Source of the DNA: Planococcus wigleyi
GTDB lineage: Bacteria; Bacillota; Bacilli; Bacillales_A; Planococcaceae
Direction of reading: 5' to 3'
Length of the DNA: 64,000 nt
Assembly: GCF_014836985.1 (NCBI RefSeq)
Contig: NZ_JACSPU010000001.1
Coordinates: 837,855 to 901,854, forward strand
Shown: positions 35,212 through 46,343 of the stretch, one piece after another
Layout: every line of letters starts with the position of its first letter
Position numbering within the stretch: position 1 is the first letter of the stretch
Notes under the pieces: model-generated
Database searches by the model: none
The model's input: only the letters and a program-made list of their open reading frames with translations
Told to the model about the DNA's origin: nothing
Program-made: the position numbers and the translations under genes

Positions 35212-38200
35212 ATGAAGAAAAAATTTGGATTGAATTTCTTTAAACCAGTCGAAAGTTATTCGGGCAGTTGGTCCATCCTGGAGGAAAAAAGCCGGGATTG
35301 GGAAAATATGTACCGCCAAAGATGGTCGCACGATAAAGTAGTCCGCACCACACACGGAGTAAACTGTACAGGATCATGCAGTTGGAAAGTATTCGTGAAG
35401 AATGGAATCATCACGTGGGAAAATCAGCAGATCGATTATCCTTCCTGCGGACCTGATATGCCTGAATTTGAACCGCGCGGCTGTCCAAGGGGTGCTACAT
35501 TTTCCTGGTATGAATACAGTCCACTGCGAGTGAAATACCCTTATATGCGCGGTAAACTTTGGCGTCTTTGGAAAGCGGCGCGAGCCAGCCACCCGAACCC
35601 GGTGGATGCATGGGCAAGTATTGTAGAAGATCCTGAGAAAGCGATGTTCTATAAATCTGCCCGTGGAAAAGGCGGACACATCCGCGTCAATTGGGAAGAT
35701 GCTTTGGAATTGATCGCAGCACAATTGATCTACACCATACAGAAATACGGACCAGACCGCGTGGCTGGCTTTACGCCAATTCCAGCGATGTCGATGGTCA
35801 GCTACGCTTCAGGAGCAAGATTTATTTCACTTCTTGGTGGTGAAATGCTTAGTTTTTATGATTGGTATGCGGATCTCCCACCTGCATCTCCACAAATATG
35901 GGGAGAACAGACAGATGTACCGGAGTCATCGGATTGGTATAACGCCGGGTATTTGATGATGTGGGGATCGAATGTTCCAATGACCAGAACACCGGATGCG
36001 CATTTCATGACAGAAGTCCGCTATAAAGGAACAAAAGTGGTATCGGTAGCTCCTGATTATGCAGAGAATGTTAAATTCGCCGATAATTGGCTGGCTCCTC
36101 ACCCTGGAACGGATGCAGCACTAGCTCAAGCCATGACGCACGTTATTCTGGATGAATTCTATCAAAAGCGCCAAGAGCCGATGTTCATCAATTACGCGAA
36201 ACAATATACGGATATGCCATTTATGATTTTATTGGATCCGCATGAAGATACATTAAAAGGTGGACGATTCTTGCGCGCCAGCGATTTGGGAGATACATCA
36301 GAGCATGCAGAATGGAAACCGGTCATTTTCGACGAAGCTGCAGATAAATTGATGGTGCCGAATGGCACGATGGGGCAGCGATGGGAAGAAGAGAAAAAAT
36401 GGAACCTGATTCTCGAAAATGAAGATGGCTCCAAAGTGGACCCGGCGATGAGTGTTGTTGGCCACCAGGAAGAATGGAAGGAAATCGTCTTCCCGTATTT
36501 CGATAATCAGGGAAATGGCGTCTTCAAGCGGGTTATTCCTGCAAGAAAAGTAATATTGGCAGATGGTACAGAACGCTACGCGGCAACTGTTTATGATCTG
36601 ATGATGAGCCAATACGGAATTATCCGTACGGAAAGTGAATATAATGCAAAAGGCTACGACGATGAAACCTCATTTTATACTCCTGCATGGCAGGAAAAAG
36701 TGACATCCGTCAAAGCATCAATCGTTACGCAGATTGCACGTGAATTTGCACAAAACTCGATCGATACAGGCGGACGCTCGATGATCATCATGGGCGCTGG
36801 CATCAACCATTGGTTCAACAGCGACACGATTTACCGCGCAATTTTGAACCTGGTCATTCTGACAGCTTCCCAGGGCGTCAATGGTGGTGGATGGGCGCAT
36901 TATGTCGGACAGGAAAAATGCCGTCCGATTGAAGGATGGTCGACTGTGGCTTTCGCGAAAGATTGGCAAGGCCCTGCAAGACTGCAGAATGCAACTTCCT
37001 TCTTCTATTTTGCAACAGAACAATGGAGATATGAGGAAAGTGGCGTAGATGTGTTGACGTCACCTTTGGCAGAAGATGTCGCCTATCAGCACCCGGCTGA
37101 CTATAATGTGCTGGCAGCACGATTAGGATGGCTTCCTTCATATCCACAATTCAATAAAAATAGCTTGCTGTTTGCAGAAGAAGCTGCTGAAAAAGGTGCA
37201 AAGACCAATAAAGAGATTATCGATTACGCAGTGGAAGAAGTTATTTCCCGTAAAACGAAATTTGCGGTGGAAGATCCAGGTGCACCGGAGAACTTTCCGA
37301 GAACACTGTTCATCTGGCGTTCCAACTTAATTTCGAGTTCTGCTAAAGGCCAGGAATACTTTATGAAGCATCTGTTAGGTGCCAAAGATGGCTTGTTGGC
37401 TGAACCGAACGTCGATGAAAAACCAGAAGAAATCGTTTGGAGGGAAGATGTTGAAGGCAAACTGGATCTTATGGTTGCACTTGATTTCCGGATGACTTCG
37501 ACTCCTCTATACGCAGATATTGTCTTGCCTGCAGCGACTTGGTACGAAAAGACCGATCTGTCTTCAACTGATATGCATCCTTTTGTACATCCATTTAATC
37601 CGGCAGTCAACCCCCTGTGGGAATCCCGTTCTGATTGGGATATCTACGCTAAATTAGCTGAAAGATTCTCAGAGATGGCGAAAACACATTTGCCTGGCGT
37701 CTATAAAGATGTGGTCATCACCCCTCTTGCACATGATACAAAAAGTGAAATTTCACAGCCGATGGGTGTCGTTAAAGATTGGACTAAAGGGGAAATCGAA
37801 GCAATCCCTGGCAAAACAATGCCGAATTTCAGTATTGTAGAGCGGGATTACACCAAAATACATGACAAATACATTACCTTGGGACCTAATTTAGCTGTCG
37901 GCAAAACCGGTGCGCATGGTGTCAGCTTCTCTGTAGCGGATGAGTATGAGGAATTGAAGCACATCAACGGTACGTTCTTTGATGAAACCATCAAAAATGG
38001 TTTGCCAAAAATCCAAACGGCTCGACAAGTGGCGGATGCCATGCTGAACCTTTCATCGGCAACAAACGGACGTGTTTCACAAAAAGCATATATTGAAGCA
38101 GAAAAAGATACAGGCGTAGAGTTGAAGGATATTTCAGCAGACCGCGCAGCAGAAAAAATCACGTTCCAAAGTATCACTGTCCAACCGCGTGAAGTTATTC

Positions 38201-38886
38201 CGACGCCGGTGTTCAGTGGATCCAATAAAATGGGGCGACGGTATTCTCCATTCACAACAAATATTGAGCGTTTAGTGCCATTCCGGACATTGACAGGCCG
38301 ACAGCATTTCTATATCGACCATGAAATTTTCCAGCAGTTCGGCGAAGCTTTGCCAATCTATAAACCGACATTACCGCCGATGGTATTCGGCAAGAATGAT
38401 AAAAAGATAAGAGGCGGCGTTGATTCGCTGGTGCTGCGTTATTTGACGCCTCACGGCAAATGGAATATCCACTCCACCTATCAGGATAATCAGCATATGC
38501 TGACGCTATTCCGCGGCGGTCCGACTGTCTGGATCAACAACGAAGATGCAAAAGCACACGATATCGACGATAATGCATGGCTCGAAGTGTATAACCGAAA
38601 CGGCGTTGTCACAGCGCGCGCTGTCGTCAGCCACCGGATGCCGAGGGGTACGATGTTCATGTACCACGCTCAAGACAAACACATTCAAGTGCCTGGTTCT
38701 GAAATTACGGATACCCGTGGCGGCAGCCATAACGCGCCGACCCGCATTCACCTCAAACCGACTCAAATGGTCGGCGGATATGCTCAGCTCAGTTACGGCT
38801 TCAATTACTACGGCCCTATCGGTAATCAGCGCGATGAATACGTGGCAGTTCGGAAAATGAAGGAGGTTGACTGGCTTGAAGATTAA
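35212..38886 (+). CDS. narG: Respiratory nitrate reductase alpha subunit NarG
   Basis: 1224 residues. Molybdenum (bis-MGD) catalytic subunit reducing nitrate to nitrite at the inner face of the membrane. The N terminus has the FS0 cluster motif HGVNCTGSC ... PSC ... CPRG and the twin-Arg-like remnant is replaced by cytoplasmic-type sequence. Cofactor-binding segments YASGARF, WGSNVPMTRTPDAHF, VSVAPDYAENVKFAD, GAGINHWFNSD and the C-terminal PRGTMFMYHAQDKH are in place. Length matches Bacillus and Staphylococcus NarG. First gene of narGHJI, preceded by GAGAAGGAGTG and an NreC-like promoter. Confidence 0.98.
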   Translation: MKKKFGLNFFKPVESYSGSWSILEEKSRDWENMYRQRWSHDKVVRTTHGVNCTGSCSWKVFVKNGIITWENQQIDYPSCGPDMPEFEPRGCPRGATFSWYEYSPLRVKYPYMRGKLWRLWKAARASHPNPVDAWASIVEDPEKAMFYKSARGKGGHIRVNWEDALELIAAQLIYTIQKYGPDRVAGFTPIPAMSMVSYASGARFISLLGGEMLSFYDWYADLPPASPQIWGEQTDVPESSDWYNAGYLMMWGSNVPMTRTPDAHFMTEVRYKGTKVVSVAPDYAENVKFADNWLAPHPGTDAALAQAMTHVILDEFYQKRQEPMFINYAKQYTDMPFMILLDPHEDTLKGGRFLRASDLGDTSEHAEWKPVIFDEAADKLMVPNGTMGQRWEEEKKWNLILENEDGSKVDPAMSVVGHQEEWKEIVFPYFDNQGNGVFKRVIPARKVILADGTERYAATVYDLMMSQYGIIRTESEYNAKGYDDETSFYTPAWQEKVTSVKASIVTQIAREFAQNSIDTGGRSMIIMGAGINHWFNSDTIYRAILNLVILTASQGVNGGGWAHYVGQEKCRPIEGWSTVAFAKDWQGPARLQNATSFFYFATEQWRYEESGVDVLTSPLAEDVAYQHPADYNVLAARLGWLPSYPQFNKNSLLFAEEAAEKGAKTNKEIIDYAVEEVISRKTKFAVEDPGAPENFPRTLFIWRSNLISSSAKGQEYFMKHLLGAKDGLLAEPNVDEKPEEIVWREDVEGKLDLMVALDFRMTSTPLYADIVLPAATWYEKTDLSSTDMHPFVHPFNPAVNPLWESRSDWDIYAKLAERFSEMAKTHLPGVYKDVVITPLAHDTKSEISQPMGVVKDWTKGEIEAIPGKTMPNFSIVERDYTKIHDKYITLGPNLAVGKTGAHGVSFSVADEYEELKHINGTFFDETIKNGLPKIQTARQVADAMLNLSSATNGRVSQKAYIEAEKDTGVELKDISADRAAEKITFQSITVQPREVIPTPVFSGSNKMGRRYSPFTTNIERLVPFRTLTGRQHFYIDHEIFQQFGEALPIYKPTLPPMVFGKNDKKIRGGVDSLVLRYLTPHGKWNIHSTYQDNQHMLTLFRGGPTVWINNEDAKAHDIDDNAWLEVYNRNGVVTARAVVSHRMPRGTMFMYHAQDKHIQVPGSEITDTRGGSHNAPTRIHLKPTQMVGGYAQLSYGFNYYGPIGNQRDEYVAVRKMKEVDWLED

Positions 38887-40462
38887 AGCGCAAGTAGCGA
38901 TGGTGATGAATTTGGATAAATGTATCGGTTGCCATACCTGCAGTGTCACGTGTAAGACCACGTGGACCAACCGTAAAGGTGCAGAGTATATGTGGTTCAA
39001 CAACGTGGAAACAAAACCTGGCATCGGGTATCCGAAGCGCTGGGAAGATCAGGAACTTTATAAAGGCGGCTGGCAGCTCCGCAAAGGGAAACTGGAATTG
39101 AAGTCAGGGAATAAATTATCAAAAGTCGCGTTGGGGAAAATCTTTTACAACCCGGATATGCCGGAAATGAAGGATTATTATGAGCCTTGGACATATAATT
39201 ATGAGCATTTGACCAACGCTGGAGAATTGGAACACTCACCGGTTGCACGTGCACATTCAGCCATCACTGGGAAGAAGATGGACCTTGAATGGGGTCCGAA
39301 CTGGGAAGATGATCTGGCAGGAGCGCATATTACGGGACCGTTGGATCCGAATATCCAAAAAATCGAAGAAGAAATCAAATTCAATTTCGATAAAGCGTTT
39401 ATGGTGTATTTACCGAGACTTTGTGAACACTGCCTGAATCCGAGCTGTGTAGCATCATGTCCCTCTGGCGCGATTTACAAACGCGAAGAAGATGGTATCG
39501 TCCTGGTCGACCAGGAAGCTTGCCGAGGCTGGCGCTATTGTATGACAGGCTGCCCTTACAAAAAAGTTTACTTTAACTGGCAAACCAATAAAGCCGAGAA
39601 ATGCACATTCTGCTTTCCGCGGATCGAAGCGGGGCTGCCAACCGTTTGCTCAGAAACCTGTACGGGCCGCATCCGTTATTTAGGGGTGCTTTTGTATGAT
39701 GCAGATCGCGTGCTGGAAGTGGCTTCCACACCAGACGAAAAAGATTTATACAAAGCGCAATGTGACCTATTTATTGACCCGTTTGATCCTGAAATGATTG
39801 CGATGGCCAGAAAAGATGGCATATCAGAAGACTGGATAGAAGCAGCGCAGAACTCGCCGGTTTACAAACTGGCGATTGAACATCAACTCGCTTTCCCGTT
39901 ACATCCGGAGTACCGGACTTTGCCGATGGTTTGGTATGTGCCGCCGCTTAGTCCAATCATGAACTATTTTGAAGGCAAAGATTCTATTAAAAATCCGGAT
40001 ATGATTTTCCCGGCAATCGAAGAAATGCGGACCCCGATTCAGTATTTGGCGAATATGCTGACGGCCGGCGATACGGAAACAGTTAAGAAATCGCTGCAGC
40101 GCATGGCAATGATGCGCTCGTATATGCGTGCCAAGACAACTGGCAAGGAATTCGATGAAAGCCGCCTGGAACGGATCGGCATGACAGCCCATCAGACTGA
40201 GAAAATGTACCGCCTTCTGGCAATCGCCAAATATGAGGATCGTTTCGTCATTCCAAGTACGCATAGAGAAGGACGTGTCAATCCGTACCGTGCGCAGGGG
40301 ATGGAAGGGTTTGATACAGAAGGCATGGGAGGGTGGGGAACTGACTCCGGTGGATCCTGTGACAGCTGTGGCCCGGCAACGCCAAGCCCAACTGGAACAG
40401 CTACGAAAACCGGTAAAGAAATTTATGAAGAAAACTTCTACGGAGGTATATGGCGTGATTAA
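38876..40462 (+). CDS. narH: Respiratory nitrate reductase beta subunit NarH
   Basis: 528 residues. Four cysteine groups bind the iron-sulfur relay: CIGCHTCSVTC, CEHCLNPSCVASCP, CRGWRYCMTGCP (Trp in place of one Cys, giving the 3Fe-4S cluster typical of NarH) and CTFCFPR ... CSETC. I start at TTG 38876, 9 nt after AGGAGG, because it gives the conserved M-K-I-K-A-Q-V-A-M-V-M-N-L-D-K start; it overlaps the narG stop by 11 bases. Confidence 0.97.
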   Translation: MKIKAQVAMVMNLDKCIGCHTCSVTCKTTWTNRKGAEYMWFNNVETKPGIGYPKRWEDQELYKGGWQLRKGKLELKSGNKLSKVALGKIFYNPDMPEMKDYYEPWTYNYEHLTNAGELEHSPVARAHSAITGKKMDLEWGPNWEDDLAGAHITGPLDPNIQKIEEEIKFNFDKAFMVYLPRLCEHCLNPSCVASCPSGAIYKREEDGIVLVDQEACRGWRYCMTGCPYKKVYFNWQTNKAEKCTFCFPRIEAGLPTVCSETCTGRIRYLGVLLYDADRVLEVASTPDEKDLYKAQCDLFIDPFDPEMIAMARKDGISEDWIEAAQNSPVYKLAIEHQLAFPLHPEYRTLPMVWYVPPLSPIMNYFEGKDSIKNPDMIFPAIEEMRTPIQYLANMLTAGDTETVKKSLQRMAMMRSYMRAKTTGKEFDESRLERIGMTAHQTEKMYRLLAIAKYEDRFVIPSTHREGRVNPYRAQGMEGFDTEGMGGWGTDSGGSCDSCGPATPSPTGTATKTGKEIYEENFYGGIWRD

Positions 40463-41030
40463 TTTAGAGAAACTATATCGTTATAAATTGTCATTCGGTT
40501 TTTTTGCCCATCACTTGACCTATCCGCAGAAGCTTGATTTTCATCCATCGTTGATTGAGGAATCATTCGATGCGGATCATCCGGCGTATAATTATGTTCA
40601 GCAATATTGGGAACTGATGCATGAATTGAGCTTGGATGAAATCCAGGAAATGTATACCGATATTTTTGATTTTGACAAAGACAGCACGCTGTTCATGACC
40701 TATTTCAAGTTTGAAGATGCCAAAGAACGGGGCCAGATGCTTGCTAAACTGAAAGTCTCGTATGAAATGTTCGGTCTTGAAATGCCGGATTCGGAATTAT
40801 CCGATTTCCTGCCACTCATTTGCGAATTTCTTTATGCAGCTGAGTGGCTGGGGGATCCACGGGCGCCTCAGAGTTTCCAGATGCTGATTGCCGTTCTGGA
40901 GGATGGAACCTATCATCTGTTGAAATCACTTGAGAAAAAAGACAGCCCCTATTTCCATCTTGTTAAAGGATTGCGTGAAACGTTTAAAGTCTGTATCGAG
41001 CAGGAGGTGCCTGTCGATGGAAACGCTTGA
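40455..41030 (+). CDS. narJ: Nitrate reductase assembly chaperone NarJ
   Basis: 191 residues, all-helical TorD/NarJ family. It holds NarG while the molybdenum cofactor is inserted. Conserved segments: SFGFFAHHLTYP near the N terminus, FDFDKDSTLFMTYFKFEDAKERG, and FLPLICEFLYAAEW. GTG 40455 follows GGAGG at 8 nt and overlaps the narH end by 8 bases; the frame continues upstream in narH without meaning. Confidence 0.95.
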   Translation: MINLEKLYRYKLSFGFFAHHLTYPQKLDFHPSLIEESFDADHPAYNYVQQYWELMHELSLDEIQEMYTDIFDFDKDSTLFMTYFKFEDAKERGQMLAKLKVSYEMFGLEMPDSELSDFLPLICEFLYAAEWLGDPRAPQSFQMLIAVLEDGTYHLLKSLEKKDSPYFHLVKGLRETFKVCIEQEVPVDGNA

Positions 41031-41706
41031 TAGATTAATTTGGGTGGTCTTTCCTTACCTCTGCATGGCCATCTTCGTTTTTGGGCACATCTATCGCTAC
41101 CGAGTTGATAAATTTCATTGGACAGCCAAATCCAGTGAATTTATTGAAAAAAAACAATTAATGATTGGCAGCTTGATGTTTCACCTTGGCATTATTCCTG
41201 TCATTTTTGGCCATATCGGAGGGTTGGCAATTCCGATTGCCTGGATGAATGCTATTGGCGTCAATGATCATTTGTATCATATCGGTGCTATCTATATCGG
41301 TGGGATTTTTGGTTTCATGACGTTGATCGGCATGATTATTCTCACTTTTCGACGCTTTTCGCTGTCCAGTGTCCGCAAATTAAGTTCTTTTTCTGATCTT
41401 GCAGTAAACTCACTGCTTTTGTTCATTGTGTTCGTCGGAATGTATGCCACGTTGGTCACGAATGTAGTGCAGCCCGACTTCGATTATCGCATGACGATTT
41501 CAGTCTGGTTCAGGGATTTGTTCTTGTTTAGAGCAAATCCGGCTATCATGGCAGACGTGCCTTGGTCGTTTAAAATTCATGTTTTAACAGGCTTTGCCAT
41601 ATTTGCTTTTTGGCCGTTTACCCGTCTTGTGCATGTTTGGAGTGTACCGTTGAATTATGTAGGCAGAAGTTATATCCTGTACAGGAGACATAAACCAACA
41701 AATTAA
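41017..41706 (+). CDS. narI: Respiratory nitrate reductase gamma subunit NarI
   Basis: 229 residues, five membrane helices with two b hemes that pass electrons from menaquinol to NarH. Histidines expected as ligands appear in FGHIYRYR, FHLGIIPVIFGHIGG and the late FKIHVLTGF / TRLVHVWS. ATG 41017 follows AGGAGG and overlaps narJ by 14 bases. End of the structural genes; the sensor genes follow after 38 nt. Confidence 0.96.
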   Translation: METLDRLIWVVFPYLCMAIFVFGHIYRYRVDKFHWTAKSSEFIEKKQLMIGSLMFHLGIIPVIFGHIGGLAIPIAWMNAIGVNDHLYHIGAIYIGGIFGFMTLIGMIILTFRRFSLSSVRKLSSFSDLAVNSLLLFIVFVGMYATLVTNVVQPDFDYRMTISVWFRDLFLFRANPAIMADVPWSFKIHVLTGFAIFAFWPFTRLVHVWSVPLNYVGRSYILYRRHKPTN

Positions 41707-41744: not shown

Positions 41745-42203
41745 ATGGATTATACAGAAGAATATCAATTGCAAATTGAAAAAATCCGGGAAGCTCTTGG
41801 TTGTGATATTATTGCGCTTGCTTTAGTCGAACCGGCGGAAAACTTGCATGTATTAAAATGGCAATACATTTCAGGCAACATAAGTGAACGCATAAAAAAA
41901 GTAGTGCTGCAATCAGGCAAAGGAATAGCGGGAGGCGTTTTTAAGAATGGCAAACCTATTCTGGTGGCTGATGTGGAAAAATTTGCAGCAAAGGAAGATT
42001 TATTCAACTATCCTATTTTAAAACTTGAAAACCTAAAGAGTATTGGCGCTGCTCCGTTATGGCATAGCGGAAGAGTGGTAGGGGTGCTGTTGGGCGGCTT
42101 TAGAGAACCCCATTTGATGACACCGGAAAGATTGCAGATGCTGATCAGCATGTCTAAATCCGACATAGGAACGCTGGACGGGAAGGAATTGATGTGGAAT
42201 TGA
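41745..42203 (+). CDS. nreA: Nitrate receptor NreA (GAF domain protein)
   Basis: 152 residues, a single GAF domain (ALGCDIIALALVEPAENL, GKGIAGGVFKNGKPILVADVE, LKSIGAAPLW, VVGVLLGG). In Staphylococcus carnosus NreA binds nitrate and, without it, inhibits the kinase NreB. Placement directly before nreB and after narI supports this function. GGAGA site before the ATG; nreB begins inside its last codons. Confidence 0.9.
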   Translation: MDYTEEYQLQIEKIREALGCDIIALALVEPAENLHVLKWQYISGNISERIKKVVLQSGKGIAGGVFKNGKPILVADVEKFAAKEDLFNYPILKLENLKSIGAAPLWHSGRVVGVLLGGFREPHLMTPERLQMLISMSKSDIGTLDGKELMWN

Positions 42204-43270
42204 TTTCGGGGAAAAAAGATCAATTGATTGATCTCATGCTGAAGATGTACGAAAACAGCACAGAAGCAATTTTCTTTTTTACGAGCGAAGGCAGTACCAT
42301 TTCAATGAACCCGGCAGCAGAAAATATAATGGATGACCATGTGCTGGAACAGCTGAAAAAAGGAGCCGAAAACGCCTTATGCAATGTCTGCAGAGGGTAT
42401 ACCAGCGAAAGCGATCTGACAACCTGCAAAGACTGTTATTTCACAAGTTCCAATCATGAGGACTTCACCTCTTTTCAGGTTTTTTTGGAAACAGTCGGAA
42501 AAGGCATTGTTCCGTACGCAGCAACCTTCCATGTTATCGATGCGGAAAAAGGCACGAGGGTCTTCATCTTAAGGGATTTGTCGATGCAATTTGAAACGCA
42601 AAACAAACTGCAGCAAAACAAAATGATGAAAAATGTCATTAAAGCCCAGGAAAATGAACGCAAGCGGATTTCAAGAGAGCTGCATGACAGCGTTGCGCAA
42701 GAACTTTTAAGTGCGGTCGTGGATTTGCGTGCACTTAAATACATGACAGATGACACAGAAGTCTTGAAGAAAACCAATGAAAGTACGTCAACATTAATCC
42801 GGTTGATGGACGATATCCGTAATCTGTCTGTAGAACTGCGTCCCTCAGCGCTTGATGACTTTGGGCTGGAGGCGGCTTTCCGTTCCCACTTTAAACGGGT
42901 GGAGGAAAGTTTCGGTTTAACCATTGATTTTAAGTCGACAGTCAAAAAGACCCGTTATGAAAATGAAGTCGAAACCGTATTGTATCGGATCTGCCAGGAA
43001 GCTGTTTTGAATGCGATAAAATATGCGCAAGTGGAGACTATCCAAGTTCATTTATTCGAAGAAGGGGATAGCTTGCAGTTGAGCGTAAAAGACAAAGGTG
43101 CAGGTTTTATCGTTGGAGACCATCCGATGGGCACAGGGCTTGGCCTTTATGGCATGAACGAACGAGCTGAATTGGTATCGGGAAATGTAACCATCGATTC
43201 TGAAGTCGGTAAAGGAACGACCGTGCATTTGCGTGTGCCTTTAGACGAAAAGCGGGAGGTGGCGAAATGA
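42194..43270 (+). CDS. nreB: Oxygen-sensing histidine kinase NreB
   Basis: 358 residues from GTG 42194. The PAS-like N terminus has Cys63, Cys66, Cys78 and Cys81 in the exact C-X2-C-X11-C-X2-C spacing of the oxygen-labile [4Fe-4S] cluster of S. carnosus NreB. Then comes a HisKA_3 dimerisation domain with phospho-acceptor His164 ([16 protein letters not shown]) and a HATPase domain ([34 protein letters not shown]). No membrane helix: cytoplasmic. It should phosphorylate NreC when oxygen is absent. Overlaps nreA and nreC. Confidence 0.95.
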
Positions 43271-43914
43271 AGATAGTCATAGCGGATGACCACGCGATTG
43301 TGCGCAGTGGGTTTTCAATGATCCTCAATTTCCAAGAGGATATGGAAGTGATCGCCATGGCAGCTGATGGAATTGAAGCTTACCAGATGGTAGCCAAGCA
43401 TCAGCCGGATGTGCTGCTGCTGGATTTGAGCATGCCGCCTGGCGAGAGCGGATTAGTGGCGACAGGGAAGATCAAGGAAGATTTTCCTGAAACCAAGATT
43501 CTTGTGCTGACGATGCATGATGATGAAGAGTATTTGTTTCATGTATTAAAAAATGGCGCTTCGGGTTATATGTTGAAAAGTGCGCCGGATGAAGAATTGC
43601 TTCAGGCCATTCGCGTCATCTACAATGGTGGAACCTACATCCATCCCAAAATGGCTACTTCATTGGTACGCGAATTAGTCAATAAAGACCACAAAGTAAA
43701 AGAATCGGATCCTTTTGAATTATTGTCCAAAAGGGAGATCGAAGTTCTGCCATTGGTTGCGAAGGGTTATGGCAATAAGGAAATTGCCCAAAAGCTCTTC
43801 ATTTCTGTAAAAACGGTCGAAGCCCATAAAGCAAAAATTATGGAAAAGCTCCAGTTGAAGAGCAGGCCTGAATTAGTGGAATACGTATTAAAGAAAAAAC
43901 TATTGAATTTTTGA
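43267..43914 (+). CDS. nreC: Nitrate respiration response regulator NreC (NarL/LuxR type)
   Basis: 215 residues. Receiver domain with acidic pocket Asp7-Asp8, phospho-acceptor Asp53 (VLLLDLSMP) and the T/K switch residues in VLTMHDD and YMLKSAP. C-terminal LuxR-type HTH ([38 protein letters not shown]). It should bind the palindromes upstream of narG and narK in this window. ATGA overlap with nreB. Confidence 0.96.
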
Positions 43915-43939
43915 CGAAAAGCTGGGAGTTGGTCTTTTG

Positions 43940-44467
43940 ATGACAGAAAAATCAGAGCTTCGTTTTAAGGAACCTGGTATGAGGCTATTGGAAAATGAAC
44001 ATGCTTATTTAACGTTCTTAATGAATGAATGGCATGCGCTGGTCCTGTCTTTTGAAGATGAAGGGCTTAGCCTGGAAGCTGGCCGTGAAAACATGAAGAT
44101 TTTACGCCAAAAACTTTTTGAGTTTATTGAGCCTTTTAAAAATCATACGGACAAAGAAGAAGAATTCTTTTTTCCCGCATTAGGAAATTATATCGGATTC
44201 GAGCAGGGCCCGCTCGTCGGTATTCAAGACGAGCATCAGGAGATCGATGCGTATATCGGTCATTTCTTTCACCATACCCGTGACAATATCGACTTATTGA
44301 CATTGGAACAGATGAAGACAGTCGCTCAGGATGCGGCAGAGGCATTTGAAGTCTTGACGGTCCATTTCATGAAAGAGGAAACCGTGCTGTTTCCGATGGC
44401 TGAAAAAGCCATGAAAGCAGCCGATCAGGATGAATTATACAAAAAACTGAATACCCTTATCACCTGA
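43940..44467 (+). CDS. Hemerythrin domain protein
   Basis: 175 residues, four-helix HHE domain. Candidate iron ligands: ENEHAYLTFLMNEW, KNHTDKEEEFFFPAL, GIQDEHQEIDAY and LTVHFMKEETVLFP. The H-x3-E and H-x4-D spacing fits a di-iron site that binds oxygen or nitric oxide or relates to Ric/YtfE iron-centre repair. It is the last gene of the nar-nre transcript, 25 nt after nreC, and is followed by a strong terminator. Differs clearly from the hemerythrin at 34325. Confidence 0.88.
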   Translation: MTEKSELRFKEPGMRLLENEHAYLTFLMNEWHALVLSFEDEGLSLEAGRENMKILRQKLFEFIEPFKNHTDKEEEFFFPALGNYIGFEQGPLVGIQDEHQEIDAYIGHFFHHTRDNIDLLTLEQMKTVAQDAAEAFEVLTVHFMKEETVLFPMAEKAMKAADQDELYKKLNTLIT

Positions 44468-44478
44468 AAAGCTTGAGG

Positions 44479-44524
44479 GGCTGTCCCAAAATCATAAAAA
44501 ATGATTTTGGGACAGCCTTTTTTT
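44479..44524 (+). terminator. Terminator of narGHJI-nreABC-hemerythrin
   Basis: A perfect 17-bp stem: left arm GGCTGTCCCAAAATCAT (44479-44495), loop AAAAA, right arm ATGATTTTGGGACAGCC (44501-44517), then a T run. Same type as the tkt terminator at 22383. Confidence 0.96.
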
Positions 44525-44540
44525 ATTGGTCAAGAGATTA

Positions 44541-44685
44541 GGCGCTTGCGCTTTTCTTATTTTTTCAGACTCCAGCGCCCAGTCCCTCGAGTCGCTTCGG
44601 CAATACCGACAATGGCAAGAAACGCCATTACCGGCATTTCCTCCAGCGCTGGTCGGGACTAAACGGGCGCTTGCGCTTTTCTTAA
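44541..44685. repeat. Intergenic repeat, variant with GCGCTTGCGCTTTTCTT ends
   Basis: The motif GGCGCTTGCGCTTTTCTT occurs at both ends (about 44541 and 44667), in the orientation of copy A's GCTTGCGCTTTTCTT. Inside are ACTCCAGCGCC ... CCAGCGCTGG and a small AATGGC...GCCATT palindrome. It belongs to the same family as 1-108 but lacks the GGCATAAG and CTTATGACC blocks. Confidence 0.65.
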
Positions 44686-44709: not shown

Positions 44710-44753
44710 AAGGGCTCTCCCTTATTAAAATGCAGGTACTCTCGGGATACAAT
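44710..44753 (+). promoter_or_regulatory. narK promoter with NreC-like box
   Basis: AAGGG-CTCT-CCCTT (44710-44723) is a perfect 5+5 palindrome fitting the NreC consensus TAGGG-N4-CCCTA except at the outer bases. TACAAT at 44748-44753 is the -10. The -35 position (TTAAAA) is poor. Box centre to -10 is 31.5 bp, the same as at narG. Confidence 0.7.
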
Positions 44754-44813
44754 GAAGGCAGGGAATCAATATGAAAAAATCGTACAGAAAATTCAGTGGA
44801 AAAGGTGATTTTG

Positions 44814-46343
44814 ATGATCAAGAAACTGCAATTGCCCCTTCAAACAATGAATCTCGTGGTCGGTTTTATGGTGTGGGTGATTATATCTTCCCTGATTCCA
44901 TTTATCAGCGAAGATATAACCATAGCTCCAGAAAGACTGGCTATCGTAACGGCTGTGCCGGTTGTTCTGGGCTCAATTCTGCGGATTCCACTTGGCTATT
45001 ACGCCAATGTCTTTGGAGCGCGAATTATTTTTCTAGTAAGTTTTATCCTGCTTTTGTTTCCGGTCTTTTACTTAAGTGAAGCCTCCAGTTTTACAGACCT
45101 CATCATCAGTGGATTATTCCTGGGAATCGGCGGAGCAGTCTTTTCAGTAGGGGTAACCTCGCTTCCGAAATACTATCCGAAGGAGAAACACGGACTCGTC
45201 AACGGAATTTATGGTGCCGGTAACATCGGTACAGCCGTCACTACATTTTCTGCTCCACTGATTGCCACACAGATTGGCTGGTCAAACACTGTCAAGATCT
45301 ACCTGATCCTGTTGCTGATTTTTGCAGCATTGAATTTCTTCTTTGGTGACCGCCATGAACCGAAAGTGAAAACCCCTATTATTGAGCAGATTAAGGGTGT
45401 TTATAAAAATGAAAAACTTTGGTTCTTTTCCTTGTTCTATTTCATCACATTCGGCTCTTTTGTAGCATTTACGATTTATCTGCCCAACTTCCTTGTCAGC
45501 AATTTCGGACTGGAAAAAGTGGACGCGGGCATGCGGACTGCCGGCTTTATCGCACTTGCGACTTTTCTTCGGCCGGTAGGCGGATGGCTTGCCGATAAAC
45601 TGCAGCCTTTGCTGCTGTTGATGGGGACGTTCTTCATCTATACCATCGCTGCGATCGTGTTGGCTTTTTCTCCAACAATCGGAATTTACACAGTCGGTAC
45701 GCTGGCTATTGCAGTAAGTGCGGGTATTGGCAACGGCGTAATCTTTAAACTAGTGCCGTTTTACTTCAATAAGCAGGCCGGTATTGCAAACGGAATCGTA
45801 TCCATGATGGGTGGCCTCGGCGGATTTTTCCCACCGATTATGCTGTCGATTATCTTTTCAGTTACGGGCCAATATTCAATCGGATTCATGCTCCTCTCCC
45901 AAGTAGCATTGGCGAGTCTCGTGCTGGTTGTCTGGATGTACTACCAGGACCGTCTGCAGCTGGCGGCCGAAGTTTTCAAGTCAACCGGACAAGGCATTTT
46001 GGTGACAGACATTTCCGGAAAAATAAAAACGGTGAATCCGGCTTTCACTAAATTGACCGGCTTTGAAGAATCGGATGTCATCGGCCAAAACCCAAACATC
46101 ATGAAATCCGACAGACAGCCAAAAGACTTCTATAAAGAAATGTGGCAGGAAATTGAGCAGAAGGGAATGTGGCAAGGCGAAATTTGGAACCGCCGCAAAA
46201 ATGGCGAGGAGTACCTTCAATGGTTGAATATCAGTGCAGTAAAGGATGATACGGGTGAAGTCGTCCGATATGTCGGTACATTCACTGATATCACTTCTGA
46301 ATACAAGAAAAAAACCGTCACCATTCCAGTGATGACTACATGA
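44814..46343 (+). CDS. narK: NarK-type nitrate/nitrite transporter fused to a C-terminal PAS domain
   Basis: 509 residues from ATG 44814 (AAAGGTGAT site). Residues about 1-380 are a complete NarK/NasA-type major facilitator: RIPLGYYANVFGAR, the nitrate-signature-like GIGGAVFSVGVTSLPKYYP and GAGNIGTAVTTFSAP, and in the second half SAGIGNGVIFKLVPFYF and GIVSMMGGLGGFFPP. Residues about 385-500 are a cytoplasmic PAS/PAC domain: STGQGILVTDISGKI, VNPAFTKLTGFEESDVIGQ, IWNRRKNGEEYLQWLNI, VRYVGTFTDIT. The usual bacterial NarK stops before this. The gene has its own NreC-like promoter, so transport is tied to anaerobic nitrate sensing. What the PAS domain senses is unknown. Confidence 0.93.
   Translation: MIKKLQLPLQTMNLVVGFMVWVIISSLIPFISEDITIAPERLAIVTAVPVVLGSILRIPLGYYANVFGARIIFLVSFILLLFPVFYLSEASSFTDLIISGLFLGIGGAVFSVGVTSLPKYYPKEKHGLVNGIYGAGNIGTAVTTFSAPLIATQIGWSNTVKIYLILLLIFAALNFFFGDRHEPKVKTPIIEQIKGVYKNEKLWFFSLFYFITFGSFVAFTIYLPNFLVSNFGLEKVDAGMRTAGFIALATFLRPVGGWLADKLQPLLLLMGTFFIYTIAAIVLAFSPTIGIYTVGTLAIAVSAGIGNGVIFKLVPFYFNKQAGIANGIVSMMGGLGGFFPPIMLSIIFSVTGQYSIGFMLLSQVALASLVLVVWMYYQDRLQLAAEVFKSTGQGILVTDISGKIKTVNPAFTKLTGFEESDVIGQNPNIMKSDRQPKDFYKEMWQEIEQKGMWQGEIWNRRKNGEEYLQWLNISAVKDDTGEVVRYVGTFTDITSEYKKKTVTIPVMTT

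Follow-up and report, generated by a model that had tools for sequence, protein, structure and literature searches.

A NarK-type transporter gene carrying its own C-terminal PAS domain was found in the window, the 64,000-nucleotide stretch of the Planococcus wigleyi genome analysed here. The fusion is conserved among relatives, its junction has a fixed length, and its PAS domain resembles flavin-binding ones. The best explanation that we can offer for this architecture is that a flavin redox sensor built into the transporter gates the import of nitrate, a reading on which our confidence is evenly divided between acceptance and doubt.

Gene Structure and Genetic Surroundings

The narK-PAS gene occupies positions 44814–46343 of the forward strand (509 amino acids, TGA stop at 46341–46343 included), and the presence of MFS_1 and PAS_9 within this one unbroken frame confirmed the original prediction of a narK gene continuing into a PAS domain. 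The candidate starts were a GTG at 44796 and the ATG at 44814, the latter being the better one, with a likely ribosome-binding site (AAGGTG, 44802–44807, forward strand) read directly in the sequence. A putative promoter-like site (TTAAAA-17-TACAAT, 44725–44753, forward strand) was found by consensus match only (9/12). In addition, the interval between narK-PAS and the preceding hemerythrin-like gene (43937–44467) contains a strong terminator-like hairpin of 20 pairs followed by a T run (44475–44521, forward strand), which suggests that narK-PAS is a transcription unit of its own. Two near-identical small hairpins with T tails (44540–44553 and 44665–44678) were also detected in the intergenic region upstream of narK-PAS.

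The placement of the gene in a nitrate respiration island was borne out as well, as narK-PAS lies downstream of narGHJI (35212–41706, forward strand, NCBIfam matches), nreA-nreB-nreC (41745–43914, forward strand, profile matches) and the hemerythrin-like gene, the latter located between nreC and narK-PAS and present at 46 of the 80 named loci (best 80 of 330 relatives). The product of narGHJI would be the nitrate reductase fed by the transporter, and nreABC, described as nitrate and oxygen sensing for transcription (PMC8139620), is a layer of control separate from narK-PAS. The rest of the genome gave a single weak MFS match (3.7e-4) and no second match of NarK strength.

The Transporter Half

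Residues 1–378 (44814–45947, forward strand) correspond to the NarK transporter part according to Pfam, PDB alignment and structure match. MFS_1 was recognized at residues 15–339 (E 2.1e-39), and the best NCBIfam match of the protein was TIGR00886 NarK (E 7.6e-64), with a score (about 216–217.4 bits) below the family cut-off of 311.7 bits; this cut-off was taken as too strict for the group because four PAS-less NarK proteins (209.6–260.8 bits) miss it too. Only three sequence matches were obtained in the PDB, all of them NarK and NarU chains, and the predicted structure is a 12-helix MFS fold with NarK/NarU as its nearest solved relatives (Z 42.3 to 4iu8 and 42.2 to 4u4w). The E. coli NarK and NarU structures (4u4t, 4jr9, 4iu8) share the full MFS fold and are the top structural matches (Z 40–42), but they are only about 25% identical to the window protein, and their chains stop after TM12, without a PAS domain. 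Residues R57, Y209, F213, and R253 align with R89, Y263, F267, and R305 of E. coli NarK, of which R89 and R305 are the substrate arginines; R57 and R253 are kept in at least 98% of 126 fusions. By kinship, the window protein is a NarK-type nitrate/nitrite transporter, with transport as its predicted function.

Conservation and Distribution of the Fusion

The second half of the protein was assigned to PAS_9 at residues 393–494 (E 2.9e-17). In a set of 126 distinct fusions, entry to which required a frame matching both halves, the junction from W374 to T398 measures 25 residues and the PAS core 93 residues without exception. Eight relatives were compared pairwise for selection, with dS saturated in six of them, and the two usable ones, the nearest, gave PAS dN/dS values of 0.037 and 0.036, indicating strong purifying selection. 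Divergence of the transporter and PAS halves was correlated (r 0.86 over 1,500 sampled pairs). The constant junction, together with the low PAS dN/dS, shows that the fusion is due neither to chance nor to sequencing error. The concern attached to the original prediction, that a sequencing frameshift might have joined separate genes, was checked and dismissed: frameshift, assembly, and sequencing artefacts are ruled out by the single junction length, the single core length, the selection on the PAS domain, and the fusions found in other genomes.

A scan of named genomes yielded 330 relatives, the best 80 of which belong mainly to Planococcus, Sporosarcina, Paenibacillus, and Bacillus-like genera, the nearest named one among these 80 being that of Planococcus sp. 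4-30 (98% identical). A full-length copy was present in 48 of 200 genomes of the window's family, and 398 Bacilli genomes contained 67 PAS-bearing places in 66 genomes (the own genome and two partial copies counted), along with 37 places at which a member of that clade lacks the PAS. Hence, the premise that bacterial NarK proteins end after the last helix holds generally but fails within the clade of the window protein. A thin sample of the phylum (398 genomes) gave the full fusion in seven genomes, the own one included, all of the same class. Other phyla were covered through plasmids and the named-genome scan (best 80 of 330); the plasmid search returned 66 records, with one clear fusion among the 25 matches listed, from Niallia (Bacilli), and other listed rows aligned past the transporter part, to residues 450–453. 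Two of these, from Paracoccus and Rhizobium plasmids, were rejected as NarK-PAS proteins, since they hold two NarK units in one frame and no PAS domain. These sequences (L188 and L189, from Paracoccus aminovorans and Rhizobium sp. CB3171) represent a different kind of NarK fusion, NarK-NarK.

Additional copies were seen in two genomes. In the first, a partial second copy (G095:C2:457225-457926) covers residues 264–497, that is, the C-terminal part of the transporter plus the PAS domain, with 79% identity, and lies about 6.5 kb from the full narK-PAS gene. In the second, two NarK-PAS genes are separated by about 4 kb, an interval that contains kinase- and regulator-like genes (L164:5962-13374), and a third, PAS-less copy (L138) is present elsewhere in the genome.

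No publication describing a NarK-PAS protein came up in literature searches for PAS with NarK or MFS, and, as far as these searches go, the conserved clade is uncharacterised. According to a 2023 review (PMC10710835), MFS transporters fused to PAS domains do occur, and the MFS proteins with C-terminal regulatory domains discussed there (citing Willson et al. 2019) belong by architecture to one class with the window protein, in which an MFS transporter continues in a single frame into a PAS domain at the C-terminus. The accessible part of that review names neither a nitrate transporter nor a cofactor or mechanism for the MFS-PAS proteins. Thus, the suggestion of an undescribed device has to be narrowed, as fusions of this general kind were already on record.

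Relatives and Cofactor Residues of the PAS Domain

The PAS domain (residues 385–497, 45966–46304, forward strand) is NifL/MmoS-like in Pfam, sequence, and fold matches. In sequence and profile searches, its best solved relatives were MmoS and NifL PAS1, Aer being significant too (5.7e-11). MmoS owes its top place in this list (2.1e-26 for the whole chain) solely to the adding up of its two PAS copies, as its best single copy reached 54.5 bits, below the 64.9 bits of NifL PAS1 (5.6e-17). The best fold match of the isolated PAS model (pLDDT 94) was also NifL (2gj3; Foldseek 7.5e-12, Z 19.6 over 116 residues). Flavin LOV domains made up most of the matches ranked below it, and flavin domains in general accounted for nearly all of the 50 matches listed per search. 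In NCBIfam, the best named family for the window PAS was the phosphodiesterase DibA (146.9 bits), with NifL at 82.8 bits.

As stated in PMC10468136, a Trp on F-alpha is the primary determinant of FAD binding, whereas Asn and His play a secondary part. The window protein has a Trp at this position (W444, codon 46143–46145, forward strand) and an Asn at the position of NifL Asn102 (N459, codon 46188–46190, forward strand; PMC12540587), both of which are kept in 126 of 126 fusions, in line with the F-alpha Trp plus at least one of Asn and His that PMC10468136 calls for; F490 is equally invariant (126/126). MmoS provides an internal control, as its PAS-A has the FAD-determining Trp and binds FAD, whereas PAS-B, listed without a cofactor in PMC8694187, has a Gln there.

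The resemblance to NifL PAS1 of Azotobacter vinelandii extends to the Trp, Asn102, and Tyr110 positions, the last being Tyr in 118 of the 126 fusions, but not to the whole of its redox network, which comprises Ser39, Glu70, Asn102, Tyr110, and His133 and in which alanine at Ser39, Asn102, Tyr110, or His133 abolishes oxygen sensing (PMC12540587). Three of these five residues are replaced by nonpolar ones: the position of Ser39 is Leu396 in the window protein (L, M, I, or V across the family), that of Glu70 is Pro427 (Pro in 125/126), and that of His133 is Phe490. The flavin chemistry should therefore differ from that of NifL. The output differs as well, since NifL signals via PAS2 to kinase-like domains, whereas that of NarK-PAS would reach a transporter helix.

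MmoS PAS-A (3ewk) and the Aer PAS (8dik), whose sequence matches were strong and significant, respectively, share the Trp with NarK-PAS. Two further flavin positions are occupied by His and Arg in MmoS and Aer (PMC9668731) but hold Pro and Phe in NarK-PAS. The flavin positions of Aer were placed with a residue numbering that we presume to be correct. Among the 200 genomes of the family, the nearest PAS outside the clade belongs to a DibA-like PAS-GGDEF-EAL protein (L176), about 50% identical to the window PAS and with the same Pro and Phe, although its output is cyclic-di-GMP turnover rather than transport.

Other sensor chemistries were considered and rejected. The window PAS contains neither His nor Cys, and the whole window protein has no Cys, so it lacks the adduct Cys of a LOV photoreceptor and the cluster-ligating Cys of an NreB-like Fe-S PAS, and thiol control of the transporter is impossible in it. 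Across the 126 fusions, Cys appears in the PAS of 5, in no conserved column, and only 33 whole proteins are Cys-free, whereas 70 have a Cys at position 296, so thiol control would be conceivable in the relatives. A haem PAS of the FixL, Aer2, or DosP kind was discarded on the same basis, as some His is present in the PAS of 73 fusions but no column exceeds 30% His. These residues make LOV, Fe-S, or His-ligated haem chemistry improbable. Binding of flavin is likely. From the original proposal that the protein senses redox, haem, or nitrate/nitrite and adjusts its own activity, the redox part is retained as the best reading, with a flavin-type PAS, and haem is abandoned for want of a His in the PAS domain.

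Gain and Loss of the PAS Domain

The history of the domain was analysed on a tree of 70 transporter halves, derived from 172 rows (171 frames plus the window), leaving out PAS rows that share more than 70% of their three-letter words and any row shorter than 250 amino acids, and rooted on ten other NarK-like proteins, two of them with very long branches. Six changes of the PAS label were needed on this tree, with 18 of its 67 inner branches open. This reads as one gain of PAS in one NarK clade followed by about five losses, a count of changes alone being unable to separate gain from loss. The loss lineages are L141–L146, L139 plus L140, L136, L137, and L138; apart from the missing PAS, the operon of L136 is the same. 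The first appears to be Staphylococcus-like, partly from its operon, and the second B. subtilis-like because argS and fnr, read by eye, adjoin narK in L140 (narG being there too), which we take to be the B. subtilis gene order. The PAS-less NarK/NarT proteins of both lineages belong to the same NarK clade (54–65% identity), and the absence of PAS from them is read as secondary loss.

No PAS remnants were detected downstream of PAS-less narK at 11 loci (two chance-level matches, E 6.7 and 7.5). Similarly, a search for MFS positions that relax once the PAS is lost, and so might mark the interface, revealed 11 that deviate in two or three of the five loss lineages, none in more than three, and no clear surface. 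As the domain was apparently lost about five times while the transporter was kept, it seems to be dispensable.

Operon Types Around narK-PAS

Genomic context was classified at 100 PAS-bearing loci with flanks, using our own score thresholds (250 bits for NreB) and leaving NarJ out of the counts. Both nar and nre genes adjoin narK-PAS at 75 of these loci, nar without nre at nine (one of them, L173, a cut contig), a NasC-like operon that also encodes a Rieske protein at eight, and nre with narI at one (L034), the other seven being other or cut contigs. Nitrate-reductase-type genes are thus found beside 93 of the 100 copies (L034 counted), and the fusion genes do not always sit beside nar/nre. 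An NreB-like kinase scoring below the threshold (105–127 bits) was found at L076, L078, and L164, the first two being NasC-like loci, so that, after L173, L076, and L078 are set aside, 14 of the 17 nar-only and NasC-like loci are clean PAS loci without nreB within their flanks. The PAS-less loci show seven cases of nar plus nre, two of nar only, and two NasC-like ones. As the same three settings occur with and without PAS, the domain follows the transporter and not one particular reductase or kinase.

The NasC-like operon (L157:10419-15312; also at L076, L078, L084, L156, L162, L171, and L175) encodes a molybdoenzyme similar to NasC, a 4Fe-4S protein, a Rieske protein whose start is twin-arginine-like, and a protein of membrane type for which Pfam gave no match. 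The molybdoenzyme of L157 scored 888 bits, under the assimilatory NasC cut-off of 1100, and this operon may encode an undescribed nitrate reductase complex. At L076 (9530-13122), narK-PAS is followed by genes for a kinase, a regulator, and another kinase, whose two PAS domains are MmoS-like in sequence (DHRIINSG) and possibly flavin sensors too.

A Proposed Flavin Gate on Nitrate Import and Its Alternatives

In the AlphaFold2 model, a continuous helix is predicted from TM12 into the start of the PAS domain (residues 354–390, 45873–45983, forward strand; mean pLDDT 90.1). The PAS core closes with F490, beyond which the 126 fusions have only 4–27 residues, and this leaves the N-terminal helix as the sole covalent path that a signal could take. 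In the mechanism that we propose, the PAS domain would bind a flavin, most likely FAD, which would report the redox or respiratory state of the cell, and a flavin-driven change at the PAS start would act straight on TM12, favouring or blocking the transport cycle, because a continuous helix of fixed length joins both and no output domain follows. Under oxygen-starved respiration, the reduced flavin would switch nitrate import on, and upon the return of oxygen the oxidised flavin would throttle it, more quickly than the transcriptional layer of Nre/Fnr could. To our knowledge, NarK2 of M. tuberculosis has no PAS domain; as it is also inhibited by oxygen, the PAS would not be the general cause of oxygen control. 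According to PMC3445494, oxygen inactivates respiratory nitrate transport through the redox state, by a mechanism described as unknown; in NarK2, control is exerted at the transporter itself, and it persisted in all of the mutants made, which covered 23 residues. A flavin PAS on NarK could provide control of this kind directly. In NifL, the redox signal travels through the helices on either side of PAS1, and the length of the linker has an influence (PMC3466315).

The flavin gate is favoured by the fixed and selected fusion, the kinship with NifL and MmoS, W444 and N459, the single helix, the reductase neighbours, the reported inactivation of nitrate transport by oxygen, and the fact that this is the sole match of NarK strength in the genome; against it stand the replaced NifL redox residues, DibA as the nearest NCBIfam family, the oxygen inhibition of NarK2, and the dispensability of the domain, and a PAS of fixed length could equally serve dimerisation. 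PAS domains commonly dimerise, and in this one the module might pair transporters or hold NarK at the nitrate reductase without sensing anything, which we regard as unlikely. NifL PAS1 dimerises via its A'-alpha helix (PMC3466315), a position occupied here by the end of the TM12 helix, and most copies adjoin reductase genes, but the invariance of W444, N459, and F490 exceeds the need of a pure dimer interface, and the association of the same PAS with three operon types makes one fixed reductase partner improbable. Reception of another ligand (nitrate, nitrite, or a metabolite), as in feedback on import, with the flavin likeness as mere ancestry, would agree with the nonpolar residues at the Ser39, Glu70, and His133 positions and with human PDE8, which belongs to the NifL cluster and whose putative site carries hydrophobic residues (PMC10468136). 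The retention of the flavin-site Trp and Asn in every fusion and the flavin domains that dominate the fold matches make us think this quite unlikely.

A PAS domain without a present role, as a relic or spacer, would fit its repeated loss from transporters that were themselves kept, but a dN/dS near 0.04, the fixed length, and the invariant pocket positions render it very unlikely. Docking of the PAS to the kinase NreB, reporting transport or redox, had been put forward in the original prediction and could be read into the 75 loci with nar and nre, the nre genes of L034, and the three sub-threshold kinases; the 14 clean loci with the fusion and no nreB nearby, together with the seven PAS-less loci that keep nar plus nre, leave it hardly probable at all. 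We thus return to the flavin gate as the preferred reading, and the specific claim that the PAS domain moves TM12 with the redox change of its FAD, giving in-protein oxygen control of nitrate uptake, is put forward tentatively, with doubt slightly outweighing belief.

If true, this claim would supply the control of nitrate uptake by oxygen that was described decades ago and whose mechanism still counts as unknown, and NarK-PAS would be one of the few transporters to be regulated by a redox domain of their own. If the PAS-less lineages are indeed those of B. subtilis and the staphylococci, the domain was lost in the two best-studied Gram-positive model groups, a loss that would account for its having been overlooked. 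With a NarK whose last helix bears a flavin-type sensor, the question of oxygen control becomes directly testable, the PAS-bearing and PAS-less relatives serving as natural controls.
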